A stretch of DNA of 64,000 nt from assembly GCF_003544875.1 (NCBI RefSeq), contig NZ_CP032093.1, positions 1,116,001 to 1,180,000 on the forward strand. The letters are read 5' to 3'. A model generated the notes under the pieces. That model worked only from the letters and a program-made list of their open reading frames with translations, was not told the DNA's origin and did not search any database. The DNA comes from Vibrio alfacsensis (GTDB lineage Bacteria > Pseudomonadota > Gammaproteobacteria > Enterobacterales > Vibrionaceae). Every line of letters begins with the position of its first letter. Positions within the stretch are counted from its first letter, which is position 1. The position numbers and the translations under genes are program-made. Below are positions 10,578 through 32,833 of this stretch, piece after piece.

Positions 10578-10588
10578 TTGTAGTACAA
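10578..10588. promoter_or_regulatory. GntR-type operator, perfect (symporter-PL6 operon)
   Basis: TTGTAGTACAA is a perfect palindrome with a central base. It lies 62 bases upstream of the symporter start. A weaker copy, TAATCATACAA, is at 10632-10642. Confidence 0.75.
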
Positions 10589-10844
10589 TAACTCAAAATC
10601 GTGATGTGTAATGCGAAATGGTAATTTTGAATAATCATACAAGTGATCGAGATCGGATATTGACATTGCACTCAAAATAACGAGCACTGGACCTGCGAGC
10701 ATTATCCTTATTTCGTGCACGTTTCTTATTTCAGTTGGTTGGCTACAAATGTTGCATGGTGAAATTGCGTGTATTCAAGCCAGTATTAGGAAATAGAGTT
10801 CAGGTCGAAACCGTTGATATAAGGCTATTTTGTATGATTTTAGA

Positions 10845-11040
10845 TAAAAACGCCCACGGCATGCCTGTAATGCGTGGGCGAAAACGGTATTAGTACCGTC
10901 TGAGCCAAGGGCTCTGTTGGATTGCAATAGAACAGTGAAACGAGGTTCTGGATGTAGCTGAAAGATACTCGAGGGGTATATCTCTCAATGTTGCTAACCA
11001 CGTTACACGGTAAGATCTTCGACAATCATTGCAAAGTTCA
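10845..11040 (-). ncRNA. Candidate structured small RNA upstream of the symporter operon
   Basis: Read on the minus strand, the segment folds into consecutive hairpins: GAGCC/GGCTC (10902-10914), ACGGTA/TACCGT with loop (10884-10899), then the terminator stem at 10851-10880 followed by TTTTTA. Such an arrangement is typical of a trans-acting sRNA or a leader attenuator. The 5' end is not defined; 11040 is a guess based on where structure fades. I do not recognise it as a named Vibrio sRNA. The overlapping 61-codon ORF looks accidental because its end is encoded by the terminator stem. Confidence 0.35.
10846..10880 (-). terminator. Rho-independent terminator (end of candidate sRNA)
   Basis: CGCCCACG (10851-10858) pairs with CGTGGGCG (10873-10880). 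On the minus strand it is followed by TTTTTA. No protein gene ends here, so it implies a minus-strand transcript starting within the intergenic region. Confidence 0.65.
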
Positions 11041-11282
11041 ACAAAGCTAGGCTCTGTAAAGTATTGTTATGATAAGGGAGCAACGGCAACAATCTACGTT
11101 GGGGGATCGTTATTCGTAAATGCTTGGTAGTTATGATGGTTATCTGCTTCGCGGTGAACCACCTAATCTATGCCGTTTTATTTATGCCTGTCGTTTAGAG
11201 CTTCTAATAATCACGTCTTCAACCTCAAAGCGATGAGTTATGTATTTCATCCGCCTTAATCTCAAAACTTGAAATGATTTTA

Positions 11283-11293
11283 TTGTATTACAA
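11283..11293. promoter_or_regulatory. GntR-type operator, perfect (lyase-porin operon)
   Basis: TTGTATTACAA, 250 bases upstream of the lyase start. A half-matching copy, TTGTAGTATTT, lies at 11506-11516, close to the start codon. Confidence 0.7.
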
Positions 11294-11542
11294 ATTAAAA
11301 TGCAGAGCTTTGGTGTAAAAATATGCGATAGAGCACAATTTTAACTTAATCTTCAGAGCGGCATGATGAGCTATTGTTTGGTTAATTCTATATTAATCAG
11401 AGGTTTAATTATAAACCCTGTATTTGTAACAAAGTTTTATTGATGCAATAAATCATACAATTAGATCTAATTCACAGAACCATCAACATCGGCTAGGTAG
11501 TATATTTGTAGTATTTTAATTCAAAACTAAAGGCCGATAATA

Positions 11543-12802
11543 ATGAAAACCCTACGACCTCTACATCTTGCTACCTGCCTCAGCGCCGTTCTTTTTAGTG
11601 CTCATTCTCTTGCTGCGGATTTCGTATTCCTTGAGCAAGCCACACTGGAGCAAAACCGCGCCGTTTTACAGTCTGATAAGGCTAGTGATTCAATGAAAGA
11701 TGCGTACAACCGTCTGATTGAAGAAGCAGAACTGGCGATGAAAGATGGCCCTTTTTCTGTGGCTGACAAAGGCATGACGCCTCCGAGTGGCAGTAAAAAT
11801 GATTACATGAGCATCAGCCCTTACTGGTGGCCAGACGAATCGAAAGAAGACGGCCTTCCTTGGGTTCGCCACGATGGCAAAACCAACCCTGCATCGAAAA
11901 CTGCTGAAACTGACTCAAAACGTATTGGTCACTTTACGCGCTCTGTTCGTGCTCTGGCTTTGGCTTACTATTTCAGCCAAGACGAGAAGTACGCAAAACA
12001 AGGTATCGAGTACGTTCGTACTTGGTTTATGAATGACGAAACTAAGATGAACCCGAACGTAAATTACGGTCAGGGTGTCCCTGGTCGCGCAGAAGGTCGT
12101 CGTGGCGGCATTATTGATACGCGTACTCTGGCTGATCGCATGTTGGATTCAATCGCCATCCTATCGCTTTCTCCTGCTTGGACAGATAAAGATGAGCAGA
12201 AAATCACACAATGGTACGGCGAATACCTAGATTGGTTGATCATAGATGACCTCTCAGGTGGTCCAAAAGGTGAAGCTGCAGCGGCAAACAATCACGGCAC
12301 TTGGTATGACTTCCAAGTCGCGAGTATTGCTTACTTCTTAGGTAATGAGCCTCTAGCAAAGCAGATGGTTCAAAAGGGCAAGATGCGTGTAGATACCCAG
12401 TTCGAAAAAGACGGCTCTCAACCTCATGAAATCGAACGTACTCGCGCTTATCACTATCACTATTTCAGCCTAGATCCATTGGTCGGCATCGCTCAAATCG
12501 GTGACAAGGTGGGCATCGATCTATGGCACTACGAGAACAAGAAAGGTGGCTCATTAGCGCAAGGTATTCAGCTAATGGCGACTTATCAAGACCCAGCGTC
12601 TGACTGGCCTTACACCGCAAAGGACAACCCACGCCGCGTAGAGCGCATGACACCGATTTACCTAAAAGCTGGTGTGGCGATGGAAAAACCCGAGTGGGTA
12701 AAACTGGCAACAGAAACCGACTTTAGCCACTTCACAGTGAAGAAACACTTGGCAGAAGTTTGGGCGCAGCGTGATATCGAATTGCTTTACCCAAAACAAT
12801 AA
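11543..12802 (+). CDS. Secreted alginate lyase superfamily enzyme (PL5/PL38-like)
   Basis: This 419-residue protein has a Sec signal peptide (MKTLRPLHLA..., cleavage likely after AHSLA, residue 24). The rest is an alpha-helical (alpha/alpha) toroid type lyase of the Pfam alginate lyase superfamily. The core motif NNHGTWYDF at 249-257 fits the Asn-His catalytic pair seen in these lyases, and RTRAYHYHY at 299-307 fits the conserved Arg/Tyr/His segment. PL5 AlgL enzymes are shorter, about 370 residues, and have a different N-terminus. PL38 is therefore a reasonable alternative, and a glucuronan-type specificity cannot be excluded. The start has AAGG at good spacing. It is followed by a KdgM-type porin gene, so it probably acts in the periplasm or outside. 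Confidence 0.78.
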   Translation: MKTLRPLHLATCLSAVLFSAHSLAADFVFLEQATLEQNRAVLQSDKASDSMKDAYNRLIEEAELAMKDGPFSVADKGMTPPSGSKNDYMSISPYWWPDESKEDGLPWVRHDGKTNPASKTAETDSKRIGHFTRSVRALALAYYFSQDEKYAKQGIEYVRTWFMNDETKMNPNVNYGQGVPGRAEGRRGGIIDTRTLADRMLDSIAILSLSPAWTDKDEQKITQWYGEYLDWLIIDDLSGGPKGEAAAANNHGTWYDFQVASIAYFLGNEPLAKQMVQKGKMRVDTQFEKDGSQPHEIERTRAYHYHYFSLDPLVGIAQIGDKVGIDLWHYENKKGGSLAQGIQLMATYQDPASDWPYTAKDNPRRVERMTPIYLKAGVAMEKPEWVKLATETDFSHFTVKKHLAEVWAQRDIELLYPKQ

Positions 12803-12813
12803 AACCTTAAAAG

Positions 12814-12835
12814 GGCGGCGTGAATTGGCGTCGCC
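12814..12835 (+). other. Intercistronic hairpin between lyase and porin genes
   Basis: GGCGGCG pairs with CGTCGCC (one G-T pair) across TGAATTGG. It is not followed by a T-run. Position and form match the hairpins inside the other alginate operons. Confidence 0.45.
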
Positions 12836-12871
12836 ACTTTGAACCCCATTTATTTACAGTGGAACATTCCT

Positions 12872-13587
12872 ATGACATCTAAAAAACATATTGCTTTAGC
12901 GATTGCGACAACCCTTTTGCTGGCAGCCTTTCAGCTGCATCTCTCGATATTCGTGAGGAATATAAACACGATTCCGAGGAATGGGCGGGTCGTGTAAAAA
13001 TTGGTGGCAGCACTGGTAACCACTATTACGGCGTAGAGATGAAGCACACTGGTAATCTAAGTGAACTTCAACGTGGTGATAGTGAATTTGAGTACGGTTA
13101 CCATTTTAAACTCGATGAAAACTGGCGTATAACAACCTCAATGCCAATCACATTTGGTAATGAGGCGGTAACGTACAAACCACAAGTTCGTGTTCAATAC
13201 AAATTTGATTCTGGTATTACTACGAAACTGCGCTACCGTCATGAATTTCGAAACTATGCCTCAGGTAAGACCGCAGAGGGCCGTGACGGAAAGCAACATG
13301 ATTCGTTAAATGCGAGCAAGATTACCGGTAATATTGATTACAATTGGAATGCTTGGCAATTTGGTTTTGAAGCCAACTATAAAGAAGATTTCTTTAATGA
13401 TGAATGGAAAGTGGGTAACAGAGACGGCAAATACGAGTGGGATTACAACGTGAAAATTGGTTACAAAGAGCAAGGTTGGGATTGGCGTCCATACGTAGAG
13501 TTCGGTAACGTTCAATGCAATAGCTCGTGCGATGATAAAGCATCACGTCAGCTACGTAGTCGTGTCGGCATCACGTACAGTTTCTAA
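12872..13587 (+). pseudogene. KdgM-family oligosaccharide porin, frameshifted in the signal peptide
   Basis: KdgM-type proteins are small 12-strand outer-membrane channels for acidic oligosaccharides. The body contains ASLDIREEYKHDSEEWAGRV, alternating beta-strand residues, a final RSRVGITYSF ending in the C-terminal Phe expected of outer-membrane proteins, and one Cys pair (CNSSC). The start ATG at 12872 encodes a signal peptide, MTSKKHIALAIATTL, but the frame breaks at the T-run 12915-12918. Adding one T restores TLFAGSLSAAS and a 238-residue precursor, the family's normal size. As written, the only downstream frame opens at 13039. The loss is a single base in a homopolymer, so a read error is more likely than true inactivation. 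It follows the secreted lyase and should pass its products to the periplasm. Confidence 0.82.
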
Positions 13588-13618
13588 GTCAGTCGTTGCC
13601 ATTTTAGGTTCAAGTTTT

Positions 13619-13652
13619 AGTAGCCAGCGAAATCGCTGGCTACTCTTGTTTT
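13619..13652 (+). terminator. Rho-independent terminator of the lyase-porin operon
   Basis: TAGCCAGCGA (13621-13630) pairs with TCGCTGGCTA (13633-13642), followed by CTCTTGTTTTA. Confidence 0.7.
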
Positions 13653-13706
13653 AATGAATGTCTTAATGAAATGACGATTAAAATGAAGTAGAGGAGGACA
13701 TATTTC

Positions 13707-14583
13707 TTAAGCCAAAGCGCGTTTCTTGGCTCGTTTCCCCTTGAATAATCGTCCCCATTTGATTGGCATCATTGGTAATACAATTAACAGAATGCCAACC
13801 GCAGTGAATAAATCTGGAATTTCATCAAACCACATGACACCAAATAGGGTGACAAATGCCAATCCTGAATATTCCGCTAAAGCGATTTGGCTTGCTGGTG
13901 CACGCTTAAATGCTTTTACGACTAGTGCATGATATGCCAGGACAAAGAGATTAATCGCGACAATCCACATTAAGTGTTGCCAAGTGATGGATTGCCATTG
14001 AGGGTAAGCGAGTACCAAAGCAATCGGCAACGTCATAAGCGTGGTCCAAAATAAAGTACAGACTAAAGGTTGGTTCTGTGGCATTCGACGAATCAGAACA
14101 TTCCCTGCTCCGATAGCAAGTGCACTGCCTAATGCAATCACTGCTGCCCAGTGAAAGTGTTCAGGCCGTAAAACGATCAGCACCCCGCCAAAGCCCACTA
14201 ATGTGCCAATCACTTTTCCTTTTGAAGGCCGCTCTTTTAAAAATATGACTGAGAGTGGTAGCACGAGCAATGGACCGACATAGAAGATGGCATTCGCTGT
14301 CGCCAGTGGTAAGTGTGTAATCGCGACCATGGCACAAGCACTGCCAAGCAGGATTAACTGAGCCCGCCAAAACGTGAGCCAATCGCAACCCATTTGACGT
14401 TCTCGTTTTTCTAAACGAAACCAAAGCGGTAACAATAGGAGTAAGCTAATAAATTGACGAATAAAGACGTATTGAAAAGTGGAACTTCGCCATTTAACAT
14501 TTTAATGACACGTCAGAGAGTGACGCAACCAAATTTGCCGCCACTAAGAGAAAAATGGCGCTAGAAACATCAGTTTTTTTCAT
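13707..14583 (-). pseudogene. DMT/EamA-family permease, frameshifted near the N-terminus
   Basis: This is a ten-helix drug/metabolite transporter with two EamA repeats; PLATANAIFYVGPLLVLPLSV belongs to the first and ASQIALAEYSGLAFVTLFGV to the second. The C-terminal 242 codons are open from 14435. The natural start is the ATG at 14583, giving MKKTDVSSAIFLLVAANLV, then the frame is lost. Two small indels explain it: one in the A-run at 14500-14503 (SLK-MLNGEVP) and one near the T-run at 14475-14478 (TFQYVFIRQF); a single insertion would also satisfy the frame arithmetic but gives a less typical sequence. Substrate is unknown. It is convergent with the porin operon and has no operator copy, so I do not count it as part of alginate use. 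Confidence 0.75.
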
Positions 14584-14603
14584 AAGGGTGTATTGCTCGT
14601 AAA

Positions 14604-15320
14604 TTAGAGACTCAGTCGATAAAGGGTACCGATGGTGGTTTGTCCTTGAGGGGTAATTCGAGTTTTTTGCGCCAACAATAATTCTGCCGTAGCAACCGCA
14701 TCGACTAGTGCATTGTGACCATTGTATTCGGGTAAACCATAGCGTGCGCGTGTCGCAGATAGGGTGACATCGATTTCGTCACGCGGGTTGAGCGCTTTTT
14801 GGAGGTGTTTTTCAATGCACATCGTGTCGATCCAAATCAAAGGTGGTTCGCTGAGCTTAAATACTCGATGTAGGTATTGACTAATGAATTTAGTTTCAAC
14901 GACACAAGCGTGAGCAACTAAGATCTTGCCTTTTGCAGCATGGAAGAACGTGCGCATTGCATCATGGATAGAAACACCCTCGGAAAGCATCTGAGGTGTA
15001 ATGTGGTTGATGACGGCCGTTTCTGGTTTGATCTGTGAATCACTGTTGATGTACATATGTTGGCTAGTGGCAAGATCCACTTTGCCTTTAGTGATGTCTA
15101 CCCAACCAATCGATAAGATCAAATCCTCTTCGCTGTCTAACCCTGTGGTTTCTAAATCCAGCACGATATAGTCAGCGTCCTGAGCGTATTGTGTGGCGTC
15201 CAAATGTGGTGTTTGAACCAACGCTTTGATGTAGTCTGGCATCGTTGTCTGTTTTGCGTATTGCTCGCGTTTTCTATTCAGGCGCGAGCAGGGATGAAAG
15301 CGCGCTAAGATTCGCTTCAT
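14604..15320 (-). CDS. DEDDh 3'-5' exonuclease (DNA polymerase III epsilon-like)
   Basis: This 238-residue nuclease has the exonuclease I motif VLDLETTGLDSEED (about residues 52-65), the ExoII region HACVVETKFI, and the ExoIII motif HNALVDAVAT, in which His and Asp complete the DEDDh set that binds two metal ions. Proteins of this group trim single-stranded DNA or RNA, and many are uncharacterised. The start overlaps the stop of the upstream DUF294 gene by one base (TAATG), so translation is coupled. This pairing is common in gamma-proteobacteria, where it often accompanies acetate genes; none is present here. The biological substrate is unknown. Confidence 0.85.
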   Translation of the reverse strand: MKRILARFHPCSRLNRKREQYAKQTTMPDYIKALVQTPHLDATQYAQDADYIVLDLETTGLDSEEDLILSIGWVDITKGKVDLATSQHMYINSDSQIKPETAVINHITPQMLSEGVSIHDAMRTFFHAAKGKILVAHACVVETKFISQYLHRVFKLSEPPLIWIDTMCIEKHLQKALNPRDEIDVTLSATRARYGLPEYNGHNALVDAVATAELLLAQKTRITPQGQTTIGTLYRLSL

Positions 15321-17182
15321 TAGCGGCTCCCAAAGCGTACTTTTGCCGCTTCCTGTAAGTCTGCAATAATACGGAATGCGTCTTTCAAGTGCTGGCGTTC
15401 AAAGCTACCAAAGGTATTTGGGTCGATGTGGTTATTTGGCTCTTCACCTCGCTTAAGCGCCTCTAATTGATGTCCAAAACGAAAAGATAAGATGAACTGG
15501 TACGCATTCAAAATGTTTTTGTAAGCATCTTCACTCAGCACTCCCGCTTCATTTGCCGCTTTGAAACGCTCGTCGGTCGCGGTTAAATCACATTCGACCG
15601 CCAAACCATAGATTCGCGCTAAGTCTATGATCAGGTTGATGGCGTACTTCTTCACATCTAACGTTTTTTTGTTCTCGCCGGACTTTTCTAAAACTAGGCT
15701 GTTGAAGATACCTAATGGCGGGTTGGTATTGACGGCATCGTTGACCAACATCGATAGGAATTCGCGATTGCTGCGAATATTCGTGTGCAGCTCATCTCGT
15801 AAGATGCGTTCGTAGTCTCTATTACCATGCAGTGTTCGGATTTCCAAAAATACACTGATGTTCAGTAAGCGTTCGTATTCTGGGTTTGCCACCCACTTTT
15901 TGTAGTACTTCTTCCAGACACTCAGTGTTTGGCACCACTTTGGTGTTGCTGCCATGAACTTGCCTGGGCACAAAGGGTAATCACAACTGGCCAAACCGTT
16001 AGTGACGATCATTGCAAGATGCTTAAAGTAAATCCGGTCGTTTTCTGTTGCATGGTCAGCAAGCACAATCGCACTGTCTTGGTCAGATAACATGTGGACT
16101 TCATTGCGAGCATGGGAACCAGCCACAATCCAGGAGAAGTCACAAGGTGGGGGCCCAAGCTTATCTATGGCAATTTGAATTAAACGGCGTGTATAGGCAT
16201 CCATGATCATGGTCATCACTTTGCCGATGGCTTCCGGTGAAACGTGCCCCTCAACGAGTGCTTCAAAGATTGCTTGGCGTTCCGACGTAAAGCTTGAAAG
16301 AGATGCCACACTGCCAGCGTATTTGATTTTTTCAATCAGGAAGATAGCTTGCACACGGTGATTTTGTACAAGATGTGTCGTGGTTAACACGCCAACGACT
16401 TTGTTGTTCTCAACTAACGGTAAGTTACGAATATTGTGTTGCATCATTATAGATGCGGCATGCAAGACAAGATCATCCGGTTTGATGGTTTGCGGATCGT
16501 GCGTCATGACGTCAGAAATAGGGCGGTCAGTACTAACGCCTTGTGCGATGACACGTTTAGTCATGTCGCGGTCGGTAATCAAGCCAACGATTTTGTCGTC
16601 CTCATAAACGACGGCGCAAGGTGAACATTTGGTGAGCATTTCATTAGCGACAGTTTGTATCGAGTGTTCGGCTTTCACGGTAGCAACACGAGCGCTAGCA
16701 ACCTCGTCTACGCGGCGAACGAATAAGCCTTTTTCTTTATTTGACCACACGACATCCAGCGCAGATTTCAATCTAACTTGAACTTGAGACGCAAAGTGCT
16801 CGGCACACTCTGGGTGAGTTTTAAACAATTGTTTTAGGGCAGAGTTGGGAATGACATACACAAGAGAATTTTCAATCGCAATCGCACGATAACCTTTACT
16901 GCTATCAATGTGGCTTCCAAGAAAAGTAAAGCCGAAAATGTCTTCTGGACCTAACTTCGCGCGTAGAATGCCATCCGTTTTTCTCTGTTCCATAGAGCCG
17001 GTTCGAATGATGTAGAGGGATTTCTCTTCACCTGTCACACATTGATCGATGACTTCGCCTTTTCCAAGGTAGATGATCTTTACATGCGATGCCAGATCAC
17101 GTAGTGCTGATTTTGGAATTTTATCGAATGGGTCAATCTGCCCGATAAATTGCAGTATGTTCGGTAATAAAGGATCAGTCAT
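15320..17182 (-). CDS. cNMP-binding/CBS/DUF294 nucleotidyltransferase-like signalling protein
   Basis: This 620-residue protein has four parts. Residues about 15-140 are a cyclic-nucleotide-binding fold (IYLGKGEVIDQC, IIRTGSMEQRK, GPEDIFGF). Two CBS motifs at about 160-290 contain GLITDRDMTKRVIAQG and VVGVLTTTHLV. A GlnD-like nucleotidyltransferase segment at about 310-450 has GSHARNEVHMLSDQDSAIVL, matching the G-S...D-x-D metal site. A DUF294 C-terminal helical domain completes it. The architecture suggests a sensor that modifies a partner by nucleotidyl transfer in response to nucleotides; the partner is not known. It is translationally coupled to the exonuclease downstream. A weak operator-like TTGTATTATTA lies at 17206-17216, too poor to claim regulation. 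Confidence 0.85.
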   Translation of the reverse strand: MTDPLLPNILQFIGQIDPFDKIPKSALRDLASHVKIIYLGKGEVIDQCVTGEEKSLYIIRTGSMEQRKTDGILRAKLGPEDIFGFTFLGSHIDSSKGYRAIAIENSLVYVIPNSALKQLFKTHPECAEHFASQVQVRLKSALDVVWSNKEKGLFVRRVDEVASARVATVKAEHSIQTVANEMLTKCSPCAVVYEDDKIVGLITDRDMTKRVIAQGVSTDRPISDVMTHDPQTIKPDDLVLHAASIMMQHNIRNLPLVENNKVVGVLTTTHLVQNHRVQAIFLIEKIKYAGSVASLSSFTSERQAIFEALVEGHVSPEAIGKVMTMIMDAYTRRLIQIAIDKLGPPPCDFSWIVAGSHARNEVHMLSDQDSAIVLADHATENDRIYFKHLAMIVTNGLASCDYPLCPGKFMAATPKWCQTLSVWKKYYKKWVANPEYERLLNISVFLEIRTLHGNRDYERILRDELHTNIRSNREFLSMLVNDAVNTNPPLGIFNSLVLEKSGENKKTLDVKKYAINLIIDLARIYGLAVECDLTATDERFKAANEAGVLSEDAYKNILNAYQFILSFRFGHQLEALKRGEEPNNHIDPNTFGSFERQHLKDAFRIIADLQEAAKVRFGSR

Positions 17183-17334
17183 AGTAAATGCGATTGGATG
17201 TTAACTTGTATTATTATATCTCTAACAACGTTCGCAAAACAACCTGTAAAAGAGGATTGGTTCGGTTAGAGGATTTTGTTGGTTTTGGCTTACGTACTTG
17301 TAGGGATGTCTCGAAAAAGTGTGCAGAATAAGGA

Positions 17335-17366
17335 CAAAAAAAGCACGTCATCAGGACGTGCTTTTG
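17335..17366 (-). terminator. Rho-independent terminator of the first GntR gene
   Basis: AAAAGCACGTC pairs with GACGTGCTTTT across a 5-base loop. The minus strand then reads a run of T. It lies 24 bases past the regulator stop. Confidence 0.8.
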
Positions 17367-17388
17367 AAAAATAGAATACGTTAACTAA

Positions 17389-18108
17389 CTAATTAACTAC
17401 TGCGAGTCGATGTTTAGAGTCTAGCAGGTGATTAGCTGACGCTTGACGGGCCTTATCTGCATTGCCTGCCATAATGGCATCATAGATCTGACGGTGTTCT
17501 TTGATGCAAGTGCTGCCTTCTTCAGAAGAGTGCGCAATGAAGTTTATAAACATTGTCGTCAAGATATTGCCAAACGGGAGATAAAAGTCATTTCCTGTTG
17601 CGTTGAAGATTAGGCTATGGAAACGAATATCGACCGTCATCCATCTTTCTTGATCAAAAACATCCGCCTCCGAAATCTCAACCATTTGTTGGAAAGTTTC
17701 AGATAATTCAATGCGTTGGTCTGCTGTGGCATGAATTGCGGCCAGTGCACAGGCTTCAGGCTCGATTGCTCGTCTTAAACCTAAGAACTGACTACAGAAT
17801 TGGTCGGTGTCTGCTAAGCCATCCATCCATTCAATGAGTTGAGGATCTAAGAAGTTCCAGTAAGCACGGTTGATAACACGAGTGCCTACTTTTGGTCGAG
17901 ATTCAAGCAATCCTTTAGATGTCAGGAGTTTTACCGCCTCACGTAGCGCAGTGCGGCTAATGCCAAATTGCTCACAAAGGGCCATTTCGCCAGGTAGGAT
18001 TGAACCTTGAGGAAGCTTACCAGACAAAATGCCACGTGCAATTTCACGGGCTACTTGCACATGAAGGCTTCGCTTAGAGCCTGAAATAGAATGAAATTCG
18101 CCAGACAT
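17389..18108 (-). CDS. GntR-family regulator, FadR/FCD subfamily (first paralogue)
   Basis: This 239-residue regulator has an N-terminal winged helix (LHVQVAREIARGILSGKLPQG, then GEMALCEQFGISRTALREAV and VGTRVINRAYWNFLDP) and an all-helical FCD ligand domain. Metal/ligand-site residues of FCD proteins are visible in DIRFHSLIFNATGN, EHRQIYDAI and ANHLLDSKHR. Such proteins repress uronate and hexonate catabolism until an intermediate binds. I chose the ATG at 18108 over the GTG at 18117 because it aligns with the start of the neighbouring paralogue. The two share the same frame of motifs throughout and point away from each other. It is a prime candidate to bind the TTGTA-N-TACAA sites. Operator-like ATGTATTATTT at 18129-18139 suggests autoregulation. 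Confidence 0.88.
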   Translation of the reverse strand: MSGEFHSISGSKRSLHVQVAREIARGILSGKLPQGSILPGEMALCEQFGISRTALREAVKLLTSKGLLESRPKVGTRVINRAYWNFLDPQLIEWMDGLADTDQFCSQFLGLRRAIEPEACALAAIHATADQRIELSETFQQMVEISEADVFDQERWMTVDIRFHSLIFNATGNDFYLPFGNILTTMFINFIAHSSEEGSTCIKEHRQIYDAIMAGNADKARQASANHLLDSKHRLAVVN

Positions 18109-18117
18109 AATCTTCAC

Positions 18118-18488
18118 TTAATTGATAAATATGTATTATTTAATCCGTACTATAGCACCCCTCGCCGTACCTACCAAGCAGATGTTTCCGTAATATAAGA
18201 ATGCTCACAAATGACGATTCAACAGTCGTTTCATGTTTGTTTGTATTCAATTTAGTGTAGTTCATTGTTTCATTACCCTCCTTTTCTTTCTGATTATTCA
18301 TACAAATTGTGGCGTTGAGTTTTTCTCTGTTGTGATCGATAACACGTATTCAATCAAATTTGGCGCGGTTTTGTCTGCTATGACTCAATTATCAAAGTGT
18401 ATGGTTGCGACAAAGAGTAATATTGTATTATTTATTTGCAAATTAATCAGTGTTAGGGCACTGCAAGAAAAATTATTAGGAGCGCTAA
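18118..18488. promoter_or_regulatory. Divergent control region between the two GntR genes
   Basis: This 371-base AT-rich region holds promoters for both regulators. Imperfect operator copies sit close to each start: ATGTATTATTT at 18129-18139 and TTGTATTATTT at 18423-18433. The two share the same nine core bases in the same orientation. ORFs read through here look accidental. Confidence 0.5.
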
Positions 18489-19205
18489 ATGGCACAGTTT
18501 TCTCTTGTAGAAGATTCACATCGTAAGATTCATGTGCAAGTTGCCAGGCAAATCGCCCGTAAAATACTGTCAGGTGAGTTAAATCAGCACGAAAGGCTGC
18601 CAAGTGAAATGGATCTCTGCGATGCATTTGGTGTTAGTCGCACAGCCCTACGTGAGTCAACCAAATTGCTATCTGCAAAAGGGCTTATTGAGTCTAAACC
18701 GAAAGTGGGTACGACCGTCTGCCAGCGTAACAATTGGCACTTTTTAGACCCTCAGCTCTTAGATTGGATCCGAGATCTTGAGAATACTGAACCATTTTTG
18801 GCTCAGTTTTTAGGGTTACGTAAAGCCATTGAACCAGAAGCTTGTGCATTGGCTGCAAGTAATGCGACAGCAGAGCACAGAAAGGAATTGTCTGTCATTT
18901 TTCAGCGTATGACTTTGGCCGCTGAACGTTATGAGTATGATGATTGGACGGCTAATGATCACTTATTTCACCAGACAATTTTCCTTTCAACGGGGAATCA
19001 ATTCTATATTCCGTTTAGTAATATTCTCTCTACCATTTTTAAGCTGTTTATCGATCATTCAGCCGAAGGTGGTCGATTTTGCATTGAAGAGCATTGCGAG
19101 ATATATGATGCCATTATGGCGGGAAATGGAGCTCAAGCTCGCTTGGCATCGCACACTTTGCTTAATGACGAAAACCAAAAACTGTCTCAGGTTGTCAATG
19201 CTTGA
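18489..19205 (+). CDS. GntR-family regulator, FadR/FCD subfamily (second paralogue)
   Basis: This 238-residue protein is clearly homologous to the regulator at 17389: the winged helix reads IHVQVARQIARKILSGEL, then EMDLCDAFGVSRTALRES and VGTTVCQRNNWHFLDPQLLDWI, and the FCD domain contains FLGLRKAIEPEACALAA, DHLFHQTIFLSTGN and EHCEIYDAIMAGNGAQAR. AGGAG precedes the ATG at good spacing. The wing and FCD cores are nearly the same in both proteins, which suggests an old duplication and possibly overlapping operators, with different ligands such as DEH and KDG. The C-terminal His pair of the other copy (NHLLDSKHR) is replaced here by HTLLNDENQ, so metal or ligand binding may differ. Confidence 0.88.
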   Translation: MAQFSLVEDSHRKIHVQVARQIARKILSGELNQHERLPSEMDLCDAFGVSRTALRESTKLLSAKGLIESKPKVGTTVCQRNNWHFLDPQLLDWIRDLENTEPFLAQFLGLRKAIEPEACALAASNATAEHRKELSVIFQRMTLAAERYEYDDWTANDHLFHQTIFLSTGNQFYIPFSNILSTIFKLFIDHSAEGGRFCIEEHCEIYDAIMAGNGAQARLASHTLLNDENQKLSQVVNA

Positions 19206-19317: not shown

Positions 19318-19328
19318 TTCTATTACAA
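19318..19328. promoter_or_regulatory. GntR-type operator, near-perfect copy (MATE gene)
   Basis: TTCTATTACAA has one mismatch to TTGTATTACAA. It lies 17 bases before the MATE start codon, between the second regulator and the exporter, where a bound repressor would block transcription. Confidence 0.45.
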
Positions 19329-19344
19329 TTTTTAAAGGTCTACC

Positions 19345-21388: not shown

Positions 21389-21399
21389 TTGTATTACAA
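21389..21399. promoter_or_regulatory. GntR-type operator, perfect (YhcH gene)
   Basis: TTGTATTACAA, about 140 bases upstream of the YhcH-type start codon. Confidence 0.7.
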
Positions 21400-23760: not shown

Positions 23761-23762
23761 TA

Positions 23763-25946: not shown

Positions 25947-25996
25947 TTTCTTTACCACCCTCAGATGAAGTGTGTTGTTTTCTTAAACTTTCAATA

Positions 25997-26007
25997 AAGT
26001 AATACAA
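25997..26007. promoter_or_regulatory. GntR-type operator, diverged (PL17 operon)
   Basis: AAGTAATACAA, read on the minus strand as TTGTATTACTT. It has two mismatches in one arm and lies 51 bases upstream of the PL17 start. Confidence 0.45.
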
Positions 26008-26185
26008 TATTAAGTTTGTTTGTAGGTTTTGTGGTGAAAAGAGAGTAAAATCACGTGGATTAATATAAACCATTGATTTGTAGTGGTGTAAAAATCCTTT
26101 TATGACTGATGCTTGTGCGTTATCAATCGATAAGTGAAATGATTTAGATCGTTCCACTTGACGAATGTCACATATTTTAGATATA

Positions 26186-26196
26186 TTGTATTACAA
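26186..26196. promoter_or_regulatory. GntR-type operator, perfect (kdgF-kdgK-eda operon)
   Basis: TTGTATTACAA, 138 bases upstream of the preferred kdgF start. Confidence 0.72.
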
Positions 26197-26333
26197 ATGG
26201 GAGTGATCGGATATGCTCGTTACCAATTCAGCAGCGAATCCTTTCTCTTTGATTTTGGCTTTGAATGAAAAGTACATAGGAGAAGAGAGTTTAGCAGGGT
26301 GAGCTTTAATAGAGACTTTTTAGGAGTATGACG

Positions 26334-26669: not shown

Positions 26670-26703
26670 TCTATAGCGCAACCTCAGTTGCTAAGGTGAC
26701 AAC

Positions 26704-27636: not shown

Positions 27637-27643
27637 TTCTTTT

Positions 27644-27671
27644 GCGGAGCGTTGAGTAGTCGGCGCTCCGC
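27644..27671 (+). other. Intercistronic hairpin between kdgK and eda
   Basis: GCGGAGCG pairs perfectly with CGCTCCGC across a 12-base loop. No T-run follows, so transcription should continue into eda. It may stabilise or separate the two messages. Confidence 0.6.
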
Positions 27672-27714
27672 AGTGATTTATCGAACTCAAGTTAACGACG
27701 ACGAGTACACTCTT

Positions 27715-28338
27715 ATGACGACATTAAACGAACAACTAGCAAACCTAAAAGTAATTCCTGTTATTGCCATCAACAAAGCAGAAGATGCGATCCCTCTTGG
27801 CCGCACTTTGGTTGAAAACGGTATGCCTTGCGCTGAAATCACGTTCCGCACAGAGTGTGCTGCAGAAGCGATTCGTGCTATGCGCGCTGAGTTCCCAGAA
27901 ATGCTGATTGGTGCAGGAACGATTCTAACTAACGAGCAAGTTGACCAAGCGATCGAAGCTGGCGTGGACTTTATCGTAAGCCCTGGTTTTAACCCTCGCA
28001 CGGTTCAATACTGCCTAGACAAAGGCGTGGCTATCGTACCGGGCGTAAACAACCCAAGCCTTGTTGAGCAAGCAATGGAAATGGGTCTGCGTACACTTAA
28101 GTTTTTCCCTGCTGAGCCATCTGGCGGTGTTGGTATGCTTAAGGCACTAACGGCCGTTTACCCAGTGAAATTCATGCCAACAGGTGGCGTTAGCCTAGGT
28201 AACGTAGACGAGTACCTGTCTATCCCATCAGTACTGGCATGTGGCGGTACTTGGATGGTGCCAACAAAACTTATCGATGAAGGTAAGTGGGATGAACTGG
28301 GTACGTTGGTTCGCGATGCAGTCGCTCACGTAGCATAA
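27715..28338 (+). CDS. eda: KDPG aldolase
   Basis: This 207-residue class I aldolase cleaves KDPG to pyruvate and glyceraldehyde-3-phosphate, the last step of the alginate route. The Schiff-base Lys is K129 in GLRTLKFFPAEPSGG, and the catalytic Glu fits E41 in CAEITFRTECAAEAIR. GAGTILTNEQV and GGVSLGNVDEY complete the barrel phosphate site. The frame is open from 27652, but the ATG at 27715 gives the standard length and start MTTLNEQLANLKVIPV. It is the last gene of the operon, after an intercistronic hairpin and before a strong terminator at 28378. Confidence 0.94.
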   Translation: MTTLNEQLANLKVIPVIAINKAEDAIPLGRTLVENGMPCAEITFRTECAAEAIRAMRAEFPEMLIGAGTILTNEQVDQAIEAGVDFIVSPGFNPRTVQYCLDKGVAIVPGVNNPSLVEQAMEMGLRTLKFFPAEPSGGVGMLKALTAVYPVKFMPTGGVSLGNVDEYLSIPSVLACGGTWMVPTKLIDEGKWDELGTLVRDAVAHVA

Positions 28339-28377
28339 TTACTGTTGTAAGCTTAAGAACATACTAAAAGCATATCA

Positions 28378-28403
28378 AGCGAGCCCAGAGGCTCGCTTTT
28401 TTT
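28378..28403 (+). terminator. Rho-independent terminator of kdgF-kdgK-eda
   Basis: AGCGAGCC pairs with GGCTCGCT around CAGA, followed by six T. Confidence 0.85.
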
Positions 28404-28461
28404 ATCTGTACTAGAATCAATGCAATTCATCATAAATAACCTGAATAAAACTTAATTATAT

Positions 28462-28472
28462 TTGTAATACAA
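28462..28472. promoter_or_regulatory. GntR-type operator, perfect (second symporter, distal)
   Basis: TTGTAATACAA, 193 bases upstream of the symporter start. Confidence 0.68.
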
Positions 28473-28591
28473 TATTTATTTTGCCATGGCGGTGATATTG
28501 ATTATTTAAACGTTAAGCCTTTTATTTTACTGCGCAGGCCTCAATATTCATTAGCACGATAACTTTTGTTTGAGATCACAATAAAAGATTA

Positions 28592-28602
28592 TTGTAGTAC
28601 AA
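28592..28602. promoter_or_regulatory. GntR-type operator, perfect (second symporter, proximal)
   Basis: TTGTAGTACAA, 63 bases upstream of the symporter start, the same position and spacer base as the copy at 10578 before the first symporter. Confidence 0.75.
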
Positions 28603-28664
28603 ATAAAGATTAAAGTTGAGTAATCTAGGAGTCAGTTAATGATGATACTTAAAAGGCTGAAAAA

Positions 28665-30422
28665 ATGACTATTGATACTCTTGTTGTTCTTGCCTACTTC
28701 TTCTTTTTAATCGCAATAGGTTGGATGTTCCGAAAGTTTACAACATCGACTAGTGATTACTTCCGAGGGGGCGGTAAGATGTTGTGGTGGATGGTAGGTG
28801 CTACCGCCTTCATGACGCAATTTTCAGCATGGACGTTTACAGGTGCCGCAGGACGCGCATTCAACGACGGTTTCGTTGTTGTCATCCTATTCTTAGCCAA
28901 CGCATTTGGCTACTTTATGAACTATATCTACTTTGCTCCCAAGTTCCGCCAACTACGTGTTGTAACGGCGATTGAAGCGATTCGCCAACGTTTTGGTAAA
29001 ACTTCAGAGCAGTTCTTCACTTGGGCTGGTATGCCTGACAGCTTGATCTCTGCGGGTATTTGGTTAAACGGTTTGGCTATTTTTGTTGCAGCGGTATTCA
29101 ACATCCCAATGGAAGCAACCATCGTAGTAACGGGCTTAGTTCTGATGCTTATGGCGGTTACAGGCGGTTCTTGGGCGGTTGTCGCGTCTGATTTTATGCA
29201 GATGCTGGTTATTATGGCAGTAACCATTACCTGTGCGGTCGCGGCTTACTTCCATGGTGGTGGTATTGGCAACATCGTATCGAACTTCCACGGCGACTTC
29301 ATGCTGGGTAACAATCTGAACTATGTCAGTATCTTTATCCTTTGGGTAGTGTTCATCTTTGTTAAACAGTTCGGTGTAATGAACAACAGCATCAACGCTT
29401 ACCGCTACCTATGTGCAAAAGACAGTGAAAACGCGCGTAAAGCAGCAGGCCTTGCTTGTGTGCTAATGATTGTCGGTCCTATTATTTGGTTCCTTCCACC
29501 TTGGTACGTAGCGGCATTTATGCCTGACTTCGCAGAGCAGTACGGCTCAGTAGGTGGAGACGCAGCTTACCTAGCATTCGTACAAAACGTAATGCCAGCA
29601 GGTATGGTGGGTCTTCTGATGTCAGCAATGTTTGCGGCAACCATGTCTTCAATGGACTCAGGTTTGAACCGTAACGCAGGTATTTTTGTGATGAACTTTT
29701 ATAGCCCGATTGTACGTCCACAAGCGTCACAAAAAGAGCTGGTTATCGTGAGTAAAGCAACGACTATCGTGATGGGCTTCATCATCATTGGTATCGGTCT
29801 ATTCATTAACTCGCTACGTCACTTGAGCTTGTTCGATATTGTACTGAACGTGGGCGCATTAATTGGTTTCCCAATGTTGATTCCTGTACTACTTGGTATG
29901 TGGATTCGTAAGACTCCGGATTGGGCGGGTTGGGCAACACTGGTTGTTGGTGGCTTTGTTTCTTACATCTTCGGTATTTCGCTACAAGCAGAAGACGTCG
30001 AGCGCCTATTCGGTCTAGAGCAAGCGTTTACAGCACGTGAGTGGGCTGACCTGAAAGTTGGCTTGAGCTTAGCCGCACACGTTGTCTTCACCGGTGGCTT
30101 CTTCCTACTGACAACACGTTTCTACAAAGGCCTATCACCTGAGCGTGAGAAAGAAGTGGCTCAATTATTTGAGAACTGGAACACGCCGCTTGTGGCCGAC
30201 AGTGAAGAGCAACAGAACCTAGATACAAAACAGCGCGGCATGCTTGGTAAGCTTATTAGCGTAGCGGGCTTCGGTATCCTAGCAATGGCTCTGATTCCAA
30301 ACGAACCAACAGGTCGACTACTGTTCATTTTGTGTGGTGCGATGGTTCTCTCGGTGGGCGTCTTGCTTGTGAATGCAGCGCGAGGGCCTAAGAACCCAAA
30401 GTTAGCTAACGCGAAGAGCTAG
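28665..30422 (+). CDS. Sodium:solute symporter, paralogue of the first alginate symporter
   Basis: This 585-residue SSS-family importer aligns end to end with the protein at 8738: both share GWMFRxFTxxTSDYFRGGG, WMVGATAFMTQFSAWTFTGAAG, PAGMVGLL and SSMDSGLNRN, and both end in a long, divergent C-terminal helix. About 14 helices are visible. It likely imports DEH or short oligoalginate with sodium. Having two importers under the same operator suggests division of labour by chain length or by mannuronate versus guluronate, which the sequence cannot settle. The ATG at 28665 follows AGG at good distance. It is monocistronic, with its own terminator at 30450. Confidence 0.88.
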   Translation: MTIDTLVVLAYFFFLIAIGWMFRKFTTSTSDYFRGGGKMLWWMVGATAFMTQFSAWTFTGAAGRAFNDGFVVVILFLANAFGYFMNYIYFAPKFRQLRVVTAIEAIRQRFGKTSEQFFTWAGMPDSLISAGIWLNGLAIFVAAVFNIPMEATIVVTGLVLMLMAVTGGSWAVVASDFMQMLVIMAVTITCAVAAYFHGGGIGNIVSNFHGDFMLGNNLNYVSIFILWVVFIFVKQFGVMNNSINAYRYLCAKDSENARKAAGLACVLMIVGPIIWFLPPWYVAAFMPDFAEQYGSVGGDAAYLAFVQNVMPAGMVGLLMSAMFAATMSSMDSGLNRNAGIFVMNFYSPIVRPQASQKELVIVSKATTIVMGFIIIGIGLFINSLRHLSLFDIVLNVGALIGFPMLIPVLLGMWIRKTPDWAGWATLVVGGFVSYIFGISLQAEDVERLFGLEQAFTAREWADLKVGLSLAAHVVFTGGFFLLTTRFYKGLSPEREKEVAQLFENWNTPLVADSEEQQNLDTKQRGMLGKLISVAGFGILAMALIPNEPTGRLLFILCGAMVLSVGVLLVNAARGPKNPKLANAKS

Positions 30423-30449
30423 CTTCTATTCAACGGATTCTAGTTAATA

Positions 30450-30487
30450 AAAAATCCCACAGTGATGATACTGTGGGATTTTTTTAT
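30450..30487 (+). terminator. Rho-independent terminator of the second symporter gene
   Basis: AAATCCCACAGT pairs with ACTGTGGGATTT, followed by a run of T. Confidence 0.85.
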
Positions 30488-30576
30488 TTGTCTGTTTAAC
30501 TCTCTACACAGAGCTAGCTATTTGTCTCTTTCATCAATTTGGCTAGTTGGAATGAGGGATGGGGAGCACTGCGGTT

Positions 30577-31508
30577 TCAAACTGCTATCAATGGAGAAGA
30601 TTTTATTTGGTTTGAAACCGCAGTGATGCAGCGTTTTGCTGAACCACTCACTCCAGAAAGTTGGAAGAAGCCATGAATGACCCCCAGGTATCGCTCACAG
30701 TAAACGTCGACACCATGAGAGAGCATTAACTTGTAGAGCTGTTCGCCCTCGTCACGCAGTGGATCAAACTCAGCGGTGATGATCGTTGTTTTAGGTAAGC
30801 CGTTAAAGTCACTGCTTAAAAGGTTAAGCTCCGGTTCGGTCGTGACTCTGGATTCTCTGTTTGTGTATAAATCGAAACCAGAAAGAAGCATGTTGGCGGT
30901 AATAATATAGTCGCTCCCATTTTCACGGTAGCTTTGTGAGCAGCCCTTAGGATCTAACATTGGGTAGATAAGAATTTGTTGGCTCGGATACCAATCCTGT
31001 AAAGCCTTGAGCCTAAGCGTTGTCGCTAATGCTAATTGGCCTCCGGCGCTGTCGCCGATAAATACTATTTGTTCGGTATTTCCACCATATTTATGGCCAT
31101 GTTCTTTGATGCGAGCACCGCCTGGTAAACATCATCATGTGCAGCAGGATAGGTATGTTCTGGCGCAAGTCGGTATGTAATACAGATAACGATGGTATTA
31201 GAAAGCAAGGCGATTTGTCTGAGCTGAGTCTCATGCGTTTTAATACCACCACTAATAAAACAGCCACCATGAAAGTAGATGGTGATGGGTAAATTTACTT
31301 CGCTCGTTGGTTTATAAACTTTAACTTGAATGCCATTCATCACATCTAAATATTCACTGTGCAATGTTGGGCTCTCACCTGCTAAAACAGTACTGCCAAT
31401 ATAACCCGTGCGACGTTCTTCGATGGTTTGGTTTGATGGGCAAGGTTTTCCATTAGCTTGAAATTGTTCAACAAGCTCGCGGATGCCAGATTCTAGGTAA
31501 TGCTTCAT
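30577..31508 (-). pseudogene. Alpha/beta hydrolase (HSL-type esterase), frameshifted in the middle
   Basis: The N-terminal frame (31508 to 31065) contains the oxyanion motif YFHGGCFISGG typical of the hormone-sensitive-lipase group. The C-terminal frame contains the nucleophile elbow GDSAGG, then the acid segment TAEFDPLRDEGE and the catalytic His in VIHGFF. Adding one A to the run at 31105-31107 (plus-strand T) joins them as ASKEHGHKYGG, giving about 310 residues, normal for the family. As written, Ser and His are separated from the start codon, so no active enzyme is made. A perfect LexA-type box lies upstream at 31560. It sits within the alginate cluster but has no GntR operator, and its substrate is unknown. 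Confidence 0.82.
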
Positions 31509-31559
31509 TATAAAACTCTACAACAAATAAACTGGCGAATAATAGACGAACTTAAAAAT

Positions 31560-31575
31560 CTGTATATATATACAG
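31560..31575. promoter_or_regulatory. LexA (SOS) box candidate upstream of the esterase
   Basis: CTGTATATATATACAG matches the gamma-proteobacterial LexA consensus CTGT-N8-ACAG and is a perfect 16-base palindrome. It lies 52 bases upstream of the esterase start. Because the centre is a simple TA run, chance is not negligible. Confidence 0.5.
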
Positions 31576-31699
31576 TTCAAATGTGTGATGTCATCGTTAG
31601 AGCAAAGAAAATAAAGAGTTGAAGCTCGAGAGGCGGGTACAAAAGAGCCTTGCTATGGGAGAACATAACAAGGCTTTAAAGTAGGTTTAGAAAGGGTAA

Positions 31700-32578
31700 T
31701 TAAGCTTCTAGCTCTGCAAAGTAGTCAAAGATAACTGGAACGTCATTTTGACCAAGGCCTTGGTCTACTGCTGCTTGTAGACTCTTAGAAGTGCCTTCAG
31801 CGATGAGAGATTCAGTACCAAGGTCTTTAACCATTTCTAGGAAGTAACCTAGATCTTTGTTTGCGTTTGCGATTGAGAAACCTAGTTTCTCCTCACCGTC
31901 TACAGCGTAGAACTTACAGAACTGCATGAAAGGAGAATTCGAAGGGCCTGCAGACATGATGTCGAACAGCTGTTGACCGTCTACGCCAGCGCGTTTAGCA
32001 ACCGCGAATGCCTGAGACATTGTTGCTACGGTTGTCATCCCCATGAAGTTATTCACGAGCTTGGTTACATGACCAGAACCCAACGCACCCAAGTAGAATA
32101 CGTTCTCGCCTTGATCATCTAATACCGGCTTAACCTTGTTAAATGTTTCGATGTCACCTGCAGCCATGATGTTTAGTAGGCCATCTTTAGCGTGAGCCGG
32201 GGTGCGACCAAGAGGAGCATCAATCATGCCTGCCCCTTTCGCTGCAAGATCAGCACCGATCTTACGAGTAGAAGCAGGGATAGATGTACCGAAGTCGATC
32301 AAAGTCGCGCCTTCTTTGATGCCTGCTAGGATACCATCTTCACCGTAAACGATCTTTTCTACAACGTCTGATGTTGTTAGGCATAGCATCACGATGTCAC
32401 TTGCTTGAGCAAGCTCTTTTGGTGTGTTTACTGTTTTAGCGCCACGAGCAACACAAGCAGCAACAGCGTCTTTATTCAAATCCATTACGTTTAATTCGTA
32501 ACCACGGTTTTGTAAGTTCTCAACCATGTTTCCACCCATCAGACCTAGGCCGATGAAACCAATGACAGGTTTTGTCAT
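31700..32578 (-). CDS. NAD(P)-dependent reductase of the HIBADH family, probable DEH reductase (DehR)
   Basis: This 292-residue protein has the N-terminal Rossmann motif GFIGLGLMGGNMVENL, the family signature region GAGMIDAPLGRTPAHAKDGLLNIM (quoted in parts: DAPLGRTPAHAKDG), and the catalytic Lys in GHVTKLVNNFMGM. Members reduce or oxidise small hydroxy acids. In alginate-using vibrios a member reduces the 5-keto sugar DEH to KDG, the step otherwise missing from this cluster, so that is the best call. Tartronate-semialdehyde reductase is the main alternative. The ATG at 32578 is chosen because GGAG precedes it at good spacing; the frame is open to 32590. Operator copies at 32823 (perfect), 32682 and 32599 lie upstream. 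Confidence 0.8.
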   Translation of the reverse strand: MTKPVIGFIGLGLMGGNMVENLQNRGYELNVMDLNKDAVAACVARGAKTVNTPKELAQASDIVMLCLTTSDVVEKIVYGEDGILAGIKEGATLIDFGTSIPASTRKIGADLAAKGAGMIDAPLGRTPAHAKDGLLNIMAAGDIETFNKVKPVLDDQGENVFYLGALGSGHVTKLVNNFMGMTTVATMSQAFAVAKRAGVDGQQLFDIMSAGPSNSPFMQFCKFYAVDGEEKLGFSIANANKDLGYFLEMVKDLGTESLIAEGTSKSLQAAVDQGLGQNDVPVIFDYFAELEA

Positions 32579-32822
32579 ATCAGACTCCAAATATCGTATT
32601 GTATGATTATATGCTTTTATCTTAATGTCTCATCCAGAATTTGCAAATACAAAATGGTGATAAGTGGTAATAGCACTAAATTTATCATACAAATGAGACT
32701 TTGATCGCCTTTAAGCGGGACTTACTTGGCAAACTGGTATGTTTTAGAGCGACCGTAGTGAAAGAATAGTCAGATAGAAATGGTTGGTCAGTACGTTGTA
32801 ATGCTGAAAAGTTGCAATTAAT

Positions 32823-32833
32823 TTGTATTACAA
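32823..32833. promoter_or_regulatory. GntR-type operator, perfect (DehR-like gene)
   Basis: TTGTATTACAA. It lies 245 bases upstream of the reductase start, further than the other sites, with weaker copies between. Confidence 0.62.

Follow-up and report, generated by a model that had tools for sequence, protein, structure and literature searches.

A TTGTA-N-TACAA palindrome as the predicted operator of a FadR-type GntR regulator in the alginate cluster of Vibrio alfacsensis

Regulators of the FadR type bind operators of the form TNGTNNNACNA. One of them, DgoR, is the GntR/FadR repressor of the D-galactonate genes of E. coli, and its published operator IR1 contains TTGTAGTACAA, an 11-mer identical to the site reported here. 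For alginate, the GntR-family protein AusR of Zobellia galactanivorans, likewise a marine bacterium, is named in a review as a repressor of alginate genes (PMC8286568); unlike the Vibrio cluster, its flavobacterial host relies on a PUL system. A predicted alginate regulator, algR, is tabulated in the Shewanella sugar encyclopedia (PMC2996990), and members of this genus carry GntR-A, one of the regulators described below; however, the entry gives neither family nor motif, so that algR is only a possible equivalent of GntR-A. The alginate locus of Vibrio sp. C42, which encodes GntR-1 and GntR-2, also contains genes for MATE, porin and SSS proteins as well as kdgF, kdgK, eda and dehR; alginate induces gntR1, gntR2 and most genes of this locus, and deletion strains for the GntR genes were constructed (PMC13390454). 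The same 2026 paper calls the transport and regulation mechanisms of alginate use by Vibrio “elusive”; no description of an operator or of binding was found in it, and its main text has zero occurrences of “palindrom,” “EMSA,” “repressor,” and “promoter” (PMC13390454). Among the sources retrieved in a literature search, no description of TTGTA-N-TACAA as an alginate operator was found.

The window analyzed here, 64,000 nucleotides of the V. alfacsensis contig NZ_CP032093.1 (positions 1,116,001 to 1,180,000), contains seven perfect copies of TTGTA-N-TACAA, which are referred to as class I sites and treated as candidate operators without strand assignment. They are located at 10578..10588, 72 bp upstream of the start of the symporter gene SSS1 (SSS1-PL6 unit), at 11283..11293 upstream of the unit comprising a PF05426 lyase and the porin KdgM, at 21389..21399 upstream of a YhcH/YjgK/YiaL-family gene (DUF386), at 26186..26196 in the divergent gap between PL17b and kdgF-kdgK-eda, where the site overlaps the end of a -10-like hexamer, at 28462..28472 and 28592..28602 as the distal and the proximal site upstream of the symporter gene SSS2, the latter at a distance of 73 bp, and at 32823..32833 upstream of a DehR-like dehydrogenase gene. 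The window scan thus confirmed the original prediction of seven perfect, intergenic copies standing before genes of the alginate cluster. The chance expectation for such an 11-mer, which that prediction had held to be computable, amounted to a mean of 0.10 and a maximum of 1 in 100 dinucleotide shuffles of the window, and with up to one mismatch 12 matches were present vs 3.1 expected. Genome-wide, ten perfect sites exist. The three outside the window all lie within coding sequence (for an IPPT of the miaA-like type, an SSB and an Ig-like surface protein), and therefore all seven intergenic perfect copies belong to the alginate cluster; an equal density in unrelated intergenic regions, the outcome that would speak against a regulon, was not seen. 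The binomial chance of finding seven of ten sites within a 22-kb stretch is 5e-15, the bounds of this stretch having been drawn from these same sites. In the genome as a whole, the exact word shows no excess (10 copies vs 14 for the pattern read backwards); what is unusual is its clustering and intergenic placement. Chance or base composition as the source of the sites is ruled out by the shuffles, the binomial estimate and the two comparative analyses given below, namely co-occurrence in the genus and a blind palindrome scan. A scan of the window for the strict CRP palindrome with up to one mismatch yielded no match, and promoter-like matches around the sites were not more frequent than in shuffles.

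Two regulator genes lie inside the cluster, GntR-A (17389..18117, minus strand), the likeliest reader of the predicted operator, and its paralogue GntR-B (18489..19205, plus strand), which is 57% identical. As had been proposed from the sequence, both encode FadR-type proteins, with PF00392 (GntR) and PF07729 (FCD) above cut-off. The recognition-helix core SRTALRE is near-invariant across GntR-A and GntR-B, and the Asp and His positions of the FCD domain are mostly retained in both. DgoR is of the FCD type too, and its winged helix and W-x-[FY]-L-D linker align with both proteins; with only 27% (GntR-A) and 25% (GntR-B) identity, however, it is a distant relative, and the low identity together with the alginate context speaks against GntR-A being a DgoR orthologue. 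At the sequence level, a DgoR-like operator specificity is nevertheless indicated by the TTGTA-N-TACAA operator itself, and TTGTANTACAA fits the proposed FadR-type form, with the blind palindrome scan returning the same motif. The arrangement differs as well, as the DgoR operator copies are spaced 21 bp apart and precede a single operon of galactonate genes, whereas the alginate cluster has sites at many promoters. Directly upstream of GntR-A, a conserved ATGTATTATTTAA is found (18131..18143, plus strand), and the word AAATAATACA occurs on either strand, anywhere in the gap, in 52 of 59 A-B gaps. Autoregulation through the symmetric site was considered for the genus and rejected, with class I sites before 3/67 GntR-A genes (approximately 2 expected) and 0/55 GntR-B genes; outside the genus, a symmetric site precedes the regulator gene in 12/37 cases vs 0.8 expected.

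Across 148 genomes of the genus, those with a GntR-A/B match (58) carry on average 9.5 sites and those without (90) carry 3.5 (P 7e-20), while the backwards pattern as control gave 11.6 and 10.3, respectively (P 0.056). Exceptions are found on both sides, with at least seven sites in 7/90 genomes lacking a match and at most five in 5/58 genomes having one. When every 5+N+5 palindrome (spacers 0-8) was scanned blindly, with expectations from base composition, TTGTA-N-TACAA ranked first both in 60 loci of the genus (74 sites vs 0.77 expected) and in 37 loci of GntR-A relatives outside the genus (28 vs 0.46); since the genus loci are related, their counts are not independent, and some genomes contributed two loci. 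Other palindromes also exceeded the composition expectation, with fewer loci and fewer sites. The seven match-free genomes rich in sites could be explained by a different regulator with its gene at another place in the genome, but such a reader is highly improbable given that the site number tracks GntR-A/B, that throughout the order the motif ranks first near these genes, and that, apart from GntR-A and GntR-B, V. alfacsensis encodes no close family member at E 1e-40.

The question which of the two proteins reads the site is less straightforward, as 57 of the 58 regulator-bearing genus genomes have two or more family matches, in almost all cases as an adjacent A+B-type pair (the A/B labels at loci being best-hit labels). 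This pairing, the common recognition-helix core and the 57% identity would also suit GntR-B as the main reader, with GntR-A having another target. Yet loci without GntR-B keep symmetric sites, namely 20 sites across 13 alginate loci outside the genus, and among seven A-only Shewanella loci four have a perfect site and three have none within 20 kb; moreover, the matches listed place GntR-B solely in Vibrio, Aliivibrio and part of the Shewanella. This makes GntR-B an unlikely main reader. Because symmetric sites persist at GntR-A-alone loci of many lineages, GntR-A is the likelier reader, and it appears to suffice on its own in many lineages.

Since the palindrome stands before most units of the cluster, occurs in no other intergenic gap, and tracks the regulator gene, it is very probably a binding site, through which alginate digestion would be switched on as one unit. 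We assign a probability of roughly 0.78 to the reading that GntR-A, a FadR-type regulator resembling DgoR, has TTGTA-N-TACAA as its operator and that this site ties the alginate cluster together as one regulon. From these data we infer the binding protein, the repression, the effector and the operon calls as follows. A GntR-A dimer would contact each half-site with one recognition helix and, as long as alginate is absent, repress the SSS1-PL6, PF05426 lyase-KdgM, YhcH, PL17b-PL17a, kdgF-kdgK-eda, SSS2, and DehR units, until a small sugar acid derived from alginate, most likely DEH or KDG, binds to the FCD domain and releases the repressor. GntR-B, having the same recognition-helix core, probably reads the same sites. 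The assumption that one or both GntR proteins govern the pathway is thereby largely supported, through co-occurrence in the genus and through conserved upstream sites.

Regarding this conservation, perfect class I sites were found upstream of 35/37 SSS1 and 5/5 SSS2 genus orthologues (window counted in both), and sites with up to one mismatch upstream of PL17b in 17/19 and of KdgF in 14/18 cases. Perfect sites in the A+B loci of the genus were present before KdgF in 10/26, PL17b in 10/28, DehR in 2/17, the PF05426 lyase in 1/10, PL6 in 0/10 and KdgM in 1/99, and the A+B loci of the family f6 had a perfect site before SSS1 in 0/4. In relatives, the PF05426 lyase site mostly takes a one-mismatch or class II form instead of the perfect one; no orthologue of the YhcH/YjgK/YiaL-family (DUF386) gene was found in the relatives' loci examined. 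The idea of a common code before lyases, porin, symporters and further genes therefore agrees best with the data at SSS1 and SSS2 and is patchy elsewhere. Nevertheless, sites upstream of orthologous alginate genes recur in several genera, as expected for a shared regulon.

In addition to the symmetric site, a second, asymmetric form, TTGTAT[T/G]ATT[A/T] (class II), is present six times in the window vs 0.29 expected and represents a new predicted operator form. It is found at 10632..10642 (minus strand), 54 bp further upstream of SSS1 than the class I site, a spacing shared by 16/37 SSS1 upstream regions (window counted), at 10830..10840 (plus) in the gap between SSS1 and the PF05426 lyase, at 11450..11460 (minus) upstream of the same lyase, at 17206..17216 (plus) downstream of GntR-A, as also in 15 genus loci, at 18423..18433 (plus) upstream of GntR-B, and at 32599..32609 (plus), 9 bp ahead of where the DehR-like gene is predicted to start; 14/17 genus orthologues of DehR likewise have class II upstream. 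Up to 400 bp upstream of GntR-A it occurs in 63/72 A+B pairs of the genus and in 3/4 of the family f6. With one intact and one degenerate half, class II is probably an accessory site that serves this system more weakly than class I.

Elements of one or the other class were also encountered at unlinked lyase genes. While the V. alfacsensis genome has no PF08787 (PL7) lyase, so that the suggestion that PL7 genes carry the motif could be answered in relatives only, of the PL7 genes that lie far from the cluster in those genomes, 9/13 have a class I or class II element upstream (four others, 49-55 kb from GntR-A, were left out), and 0/7 have either form in regulator-less genomes. This survey covered 16 genomes, chosen largely from clades expected to carry PL7 lyases, and its random sequences came from a dinucleotide model, not from exact shuffles. 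The result is a concrete predicted operator with a likely reader and a set of predicted targets, unlinked lyases among them.

Alternatively, class II might be a promoter element (-10 TATGAT/TATTAT). It does contain -10-like hexamers, some copies are close to gene starts, and of the seven copies elsewhere in the genome four are intergenic with no known alginate link. We nevertheless consider this improbable, as the elements stand in both orientations relative to the gene that follows, at distances of up to approximately 380 bp, the TTGTAT half tolerates hardly more variation than its class I counterpart, the copies per genome follow the regulators (19.7 with vs 11.4 without; control 15.9 vs 13.8), and PL7 genes of regulator-less genomes lack class II.

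Early counts suggested that class II needs GntR-B. Away from the GntR-A-adjacent region, A+B genus loci contain 123 elements in 224 kb (A+B here comprising all genus loci not known to lack GntR-B, a few of which have a fragmentary or distant one), and A-only loci contain 0 in 7 kb (genus) and 0 in 6 kb (f6). This distribution, together with the FCD ligand positions mostly retained in both proteins, could point to homodimers of each regulator and A/B heterodimers competing for both site forms, with each regulator sensing a different alginate product. However, A-only loci do carry class II next to GntR-A (1 in 2 kb and 3 in 5 kb), and nine loci from genomes with GntR-A as sole family member contain 14 elements vs 0.96 expected (centre base free, expectation from base composition), spread over 8/9 loci, so that GntR-B is dispensable for class II. 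For this count eleven genomes were tested, with Mangrovibacter (three matches) and Agarivorans (two) left out, and one of the three Shewanella GntR-A genes reads with an internal stop. As the recognition-helix cores of both proteins, in addition, do not differ, such a competing pair is rather doubtful. Beside the GntR-A regulon, it can be put forward tentatively that the twin repressors read operators of two grades: strict symmetric sites would mark the main cluster promoters, and asymmetric ones, which keep a constant distance of 54 bp (about five helical turns) at the main symporter, would also bring unlinked PL7 lyases and the two regulators under control. The second repressor, a duplicate that was observed in no genera other than Vibrio, Aliivibrio and, in part, Shewanella, could pair or compete with the first and tune the response to different alginate products. 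Genomes with one or two regulator copies form a natural series for studying the gain of this second repressor.

The six near copies named in the original prediction turned out to be of different quality: those at 6906 and 19318 have one mismatch, whereas those at 11506, 18423, 25997 and 32682 have two or three. The 5′ end of an ORF predicted to encode a permease overlaps with the copy at 6906. The one at 19318, before MATE, was rejected as a functional copy, since a copy with up to one mismatch precedes 3/46 genus orthologues, with approximately 2 expected from shuffles. Two of the others match the asymmetric form, namely 18423 and the class II-like TTGTAGTATTT (11506..11516, plus strand), 37 bp before the start of the PF05426 lyase and also present upstream of this gene in relatives, and 32682 is a class II form with one further change. 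Finally, the weaker site TTGTATTACTT (25997..26007, minus strand) lies near the PL17b start, and its form recurs in the KdgF/PL17b gap of 13 genus loci.

The genes of the alginate cluster (window positions 7050-32590) were assigned by Pfam, with short names given by analogy. They encode a Chondroitinase_B-type lyase (PL6), two sodium:solute symporters (SSS1 and SSS2), a PF05426 alginate lyase, a KdgM porin, a MATE transporter, a YhcH-family protein, two Hepar_II_III_C/PF05426 proteins (PL17a and PL17b; the oligoalginate lyase model NF042990 matched below cut-off), a cupin (KdgF), a PfkB kinase (KdgK), a KDPG aldolase (Eda) and a DehR-like NAD_binding_2 reductase. The two FadR-type regulators of the original prediction were recovered as GntR-FCD proteins, GntR-A (17389..18117, minus strand) and GntR-B (18489..19205, plus strand), which are 57% identical and divergently encoded. 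Likewise, seven perfect copies of the symmetric TTGTA-N-TACAA (class I) were confirmed at 10578, 11283, 21389, 26186, 28462, 28592 and 32823, with a mean of 0.10 and never more than one in shuffled sequences. With one mismatch allowed, 12 matches were found in the window (3.1 expected), and the five additional ones could largely be due to chance.

It had been proposed that one code marks lyases, porin, symporters, kdgF-kdgK-eda, YhcH and the DehR-like gene. In agreement with this, the seven sites fall on seven transcription units, as inferred from strand and spacing: SSS1-PL6 (10578), PF05426 lyase-KdgM (11283), YhcH (21389), the divergent PL17b-PL17a and kdgF-kdgK-eda (sharing 26186), SSS2 (28462 and 28592) and DehR (32823). 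Three genes at 13707-17182, coding for an EamA transporter, an exonuclease and a CBS/DUF294 protein, show no obvious connection to alginate, nor was a perfect site found at them. The 1-kb gap at 10517-11542, with no internal ORF longer than 61 aa, contains three or four asymmetric (class II, see below) sites besides two of class I. The neighboring ORFs 30577-30960 and 31065-31508 (minus strand) match, respectively, the C-terminal and the N-terminal portion of a single alpha/beta hydrolase family (Abhydrolase_3); since neither covers the middle of the profile, the gene looks broken.

Across the genome (4.91 Mb in three contigs; the window is C1:1116001-1180000), 10 perfect copies compare with 14 for the backwards control pattern, so that the word is not frequent as such. 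The three copies outside the window all lie inside coding sequence; instead of an equal density in unrelated intergenic DNA, all intergenic perfect copies are thus found in the alginate cluster.

Regulator and motif also go together across the genus. GntR-A had a match (E 1e-40) in 58 of 148 genomes drawn, 57 of which contained at least two matches, nearly always adjacent. These 58 genomes carry 9.5 perfect sites on average, compared to 3.5 in the other 90 (P 7e-20), the backwards control giving 11.6 and 10.3 (P 0.056). Seven genomes without a GntR-A/B match (G003, G022, G043, G086, G088, G111, G142) still contain 7-10 perfect TTGTANTACAA each, and the same word may be used there by another regulator. 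The nearest named relatives of GntR-A belong to the Vibrio harveyi / V. jasicida / V. owensii group (92-94% identical), in a comparison that may leave out records very close to the window's own genome.

A motif-blind scan covered 60 genus stretches around the regulator genes, each no longer than 20 kb, and another 40 such stretches drawn from the order (37 lying outside the genus); all 5+N+5 palindromes with spacers of 0 to 8 were ranked by locus number. TTGTA-N-TACAA came first both within the genus (74 sites, 0.77 expected, 45/60 loci) and outside it (28, 0.46 expected, 14/37 loci), these counts being drawn from related loci and hence not independent. AT-rich and terminator-like palindromes were also above expectation, at fewer loci and with fewer sites. 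In genus loci with both regulator types, window included, SSS1 has a perfect site about 72 bp before its start in 35 of 37 and SSS2 in 5/5 (outside the genus 3/3). With at most one mismatch, sites precede PL17b (17/19), KdgF (14/18) and the PF05426 lyase (8/8). Perfect copies are rare or absent at the PF05426 lyase (1/10), DehR (2/17), KdgM (1/99), PL6 (0/10) and PL17a (3/35), some of which are presumably second genes of operons. No YhcH orthologue was found in the fetched loci.

When the right halves following TTGTA-N were tallied in genus intergenic DNA, TACAA ranked first, ahead of TATTT (62, 4.85 expected), GATTA (38, 1.75 expected) and further halves. No enrichment of TATTT was seen outside the genus (4, 2.3 expected). 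The gap between GntR-A and GntR-B contains conserved asymmetric elements, with AAATAATACA in 52 of 59 gaps. The resulting class II, TTGTAT[T/G]ATT[A/T], occurs six times in the window (0.29 expected) and 13 times in the genome, three of the seven copies elsewhere being in coding sequence and four between genes not known to be linked to alginate. At SSS1, 16/37 regions have it 54 bp upstream of class I. Genus genomes with the regulators hold 19.7 class II copies and those without 11.4 (P 6e-12), compared to 15.9 and 13.8 for the control (P 0.08). An assignment of class II to GntR-B was rejected: genomes with GntR-A as sole family member (three Shewanella, Buttiauxella, four Marinomonas and one Vibrio) have 14 copies in 8/9 loci (0.96 expected). 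Because class II is abundant there, GntR-A probably reads it as well.

Outside the genus, most stretches contain the A-type gene alone, and alginate loci retain symmetric sites (20 in 13 loci); in A-only Shewanella loci, a perfect site lies upstream of KdgF in 4/7. In this sample, GntR-B was restricted to Vibrio, Aliivibrio and some Shewanella. The recognition-helix core SRTALRE hardly varies in either protein, so that GntR-B may read the same site. The FCD Asp and His residues, which fit a metal-bound sugar-acid as inferred ligand, are largely retained in both, the middle His less so in GntR-B (32/57 rows). E. coli DgoR, 27% identical to GntR-A, binds inverted repeats, of which IR1 includes TTGTAGTACAA (PMC12288454); in the K-12 dgoR upstream region, TTGTACTACAA and TTGTACTACAT occur at a distance of 21 bp. 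The simplest interpretation is that GntR-A, perhaps with GntR-B, represses the alginate units and that an alginate-derived monomer would lift this repression. It is backed by the family precedents DgoR and AusR (the latter as described in PMC8286568) and by the finding that alginate induces the homologous locus of Vibrio sp. C42 (PMC13390454).

The gap between the two regulator genes measures 371 bp in the window (18118-18488) and about 1.1-1.35 kb in many relatives; in L041, L053, L058 and L070 (stretches around GntR-A relatives), it holds, by eye, a short-chain-dehydrogenase-like ORF that is not in the window gap. Two stretches from records labeled as Enterobacteriaceae, L254 (Mangrovibacter yixingensis) and L268 (Buttiauxella agrestis), contain a Vibrio-like alginate cluster with GntR-A and class II sites, with perfect class I in L268 only, which suggests horizontal transfer of the cluster together with its regulation.

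A check of whether other alginate genes, for example PL7 lyases, carry the motif had been suggested. The window's genome contains no PF08787 (PL7) lyase. A search of 16 genomes, picked mainly from clades in which PL7 was likely to occur, found it in 13, and 30 of 82 matching regions were fetched. Thirteen genes were remote, either more than 100 kb away from GntR-A or on a different contig or chromosome; for two of them, located on separate contigs of a draft genome, the true distance is uncertain. In nine of the thirteen, representing a few orthologue groups, a class I, class II or near-symmetric site lies no more than 450 bp from the start (random expectation at the same dinucleotide make-up 0.31, maximum 5 in 1000). 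On the GntR-A contig but more than 100 kb away, sites were present at 7/9, at 49-55 kb at 2/4 and nearer at 6/13. Among the 90 genus genomes lacking the regulator, 80 were covered; they yielded seven distinct PL7-like genes, two of which scored below the family cut-off, and none had a site (0/7 vs 9/13, Fisher P 0.005). Upstream of PL7 genes (L306-L310), a CRP-type half-site, TGTGATC, comes no more than a few bases after class II, and control of these genes may overlap with carbon catabolite control.
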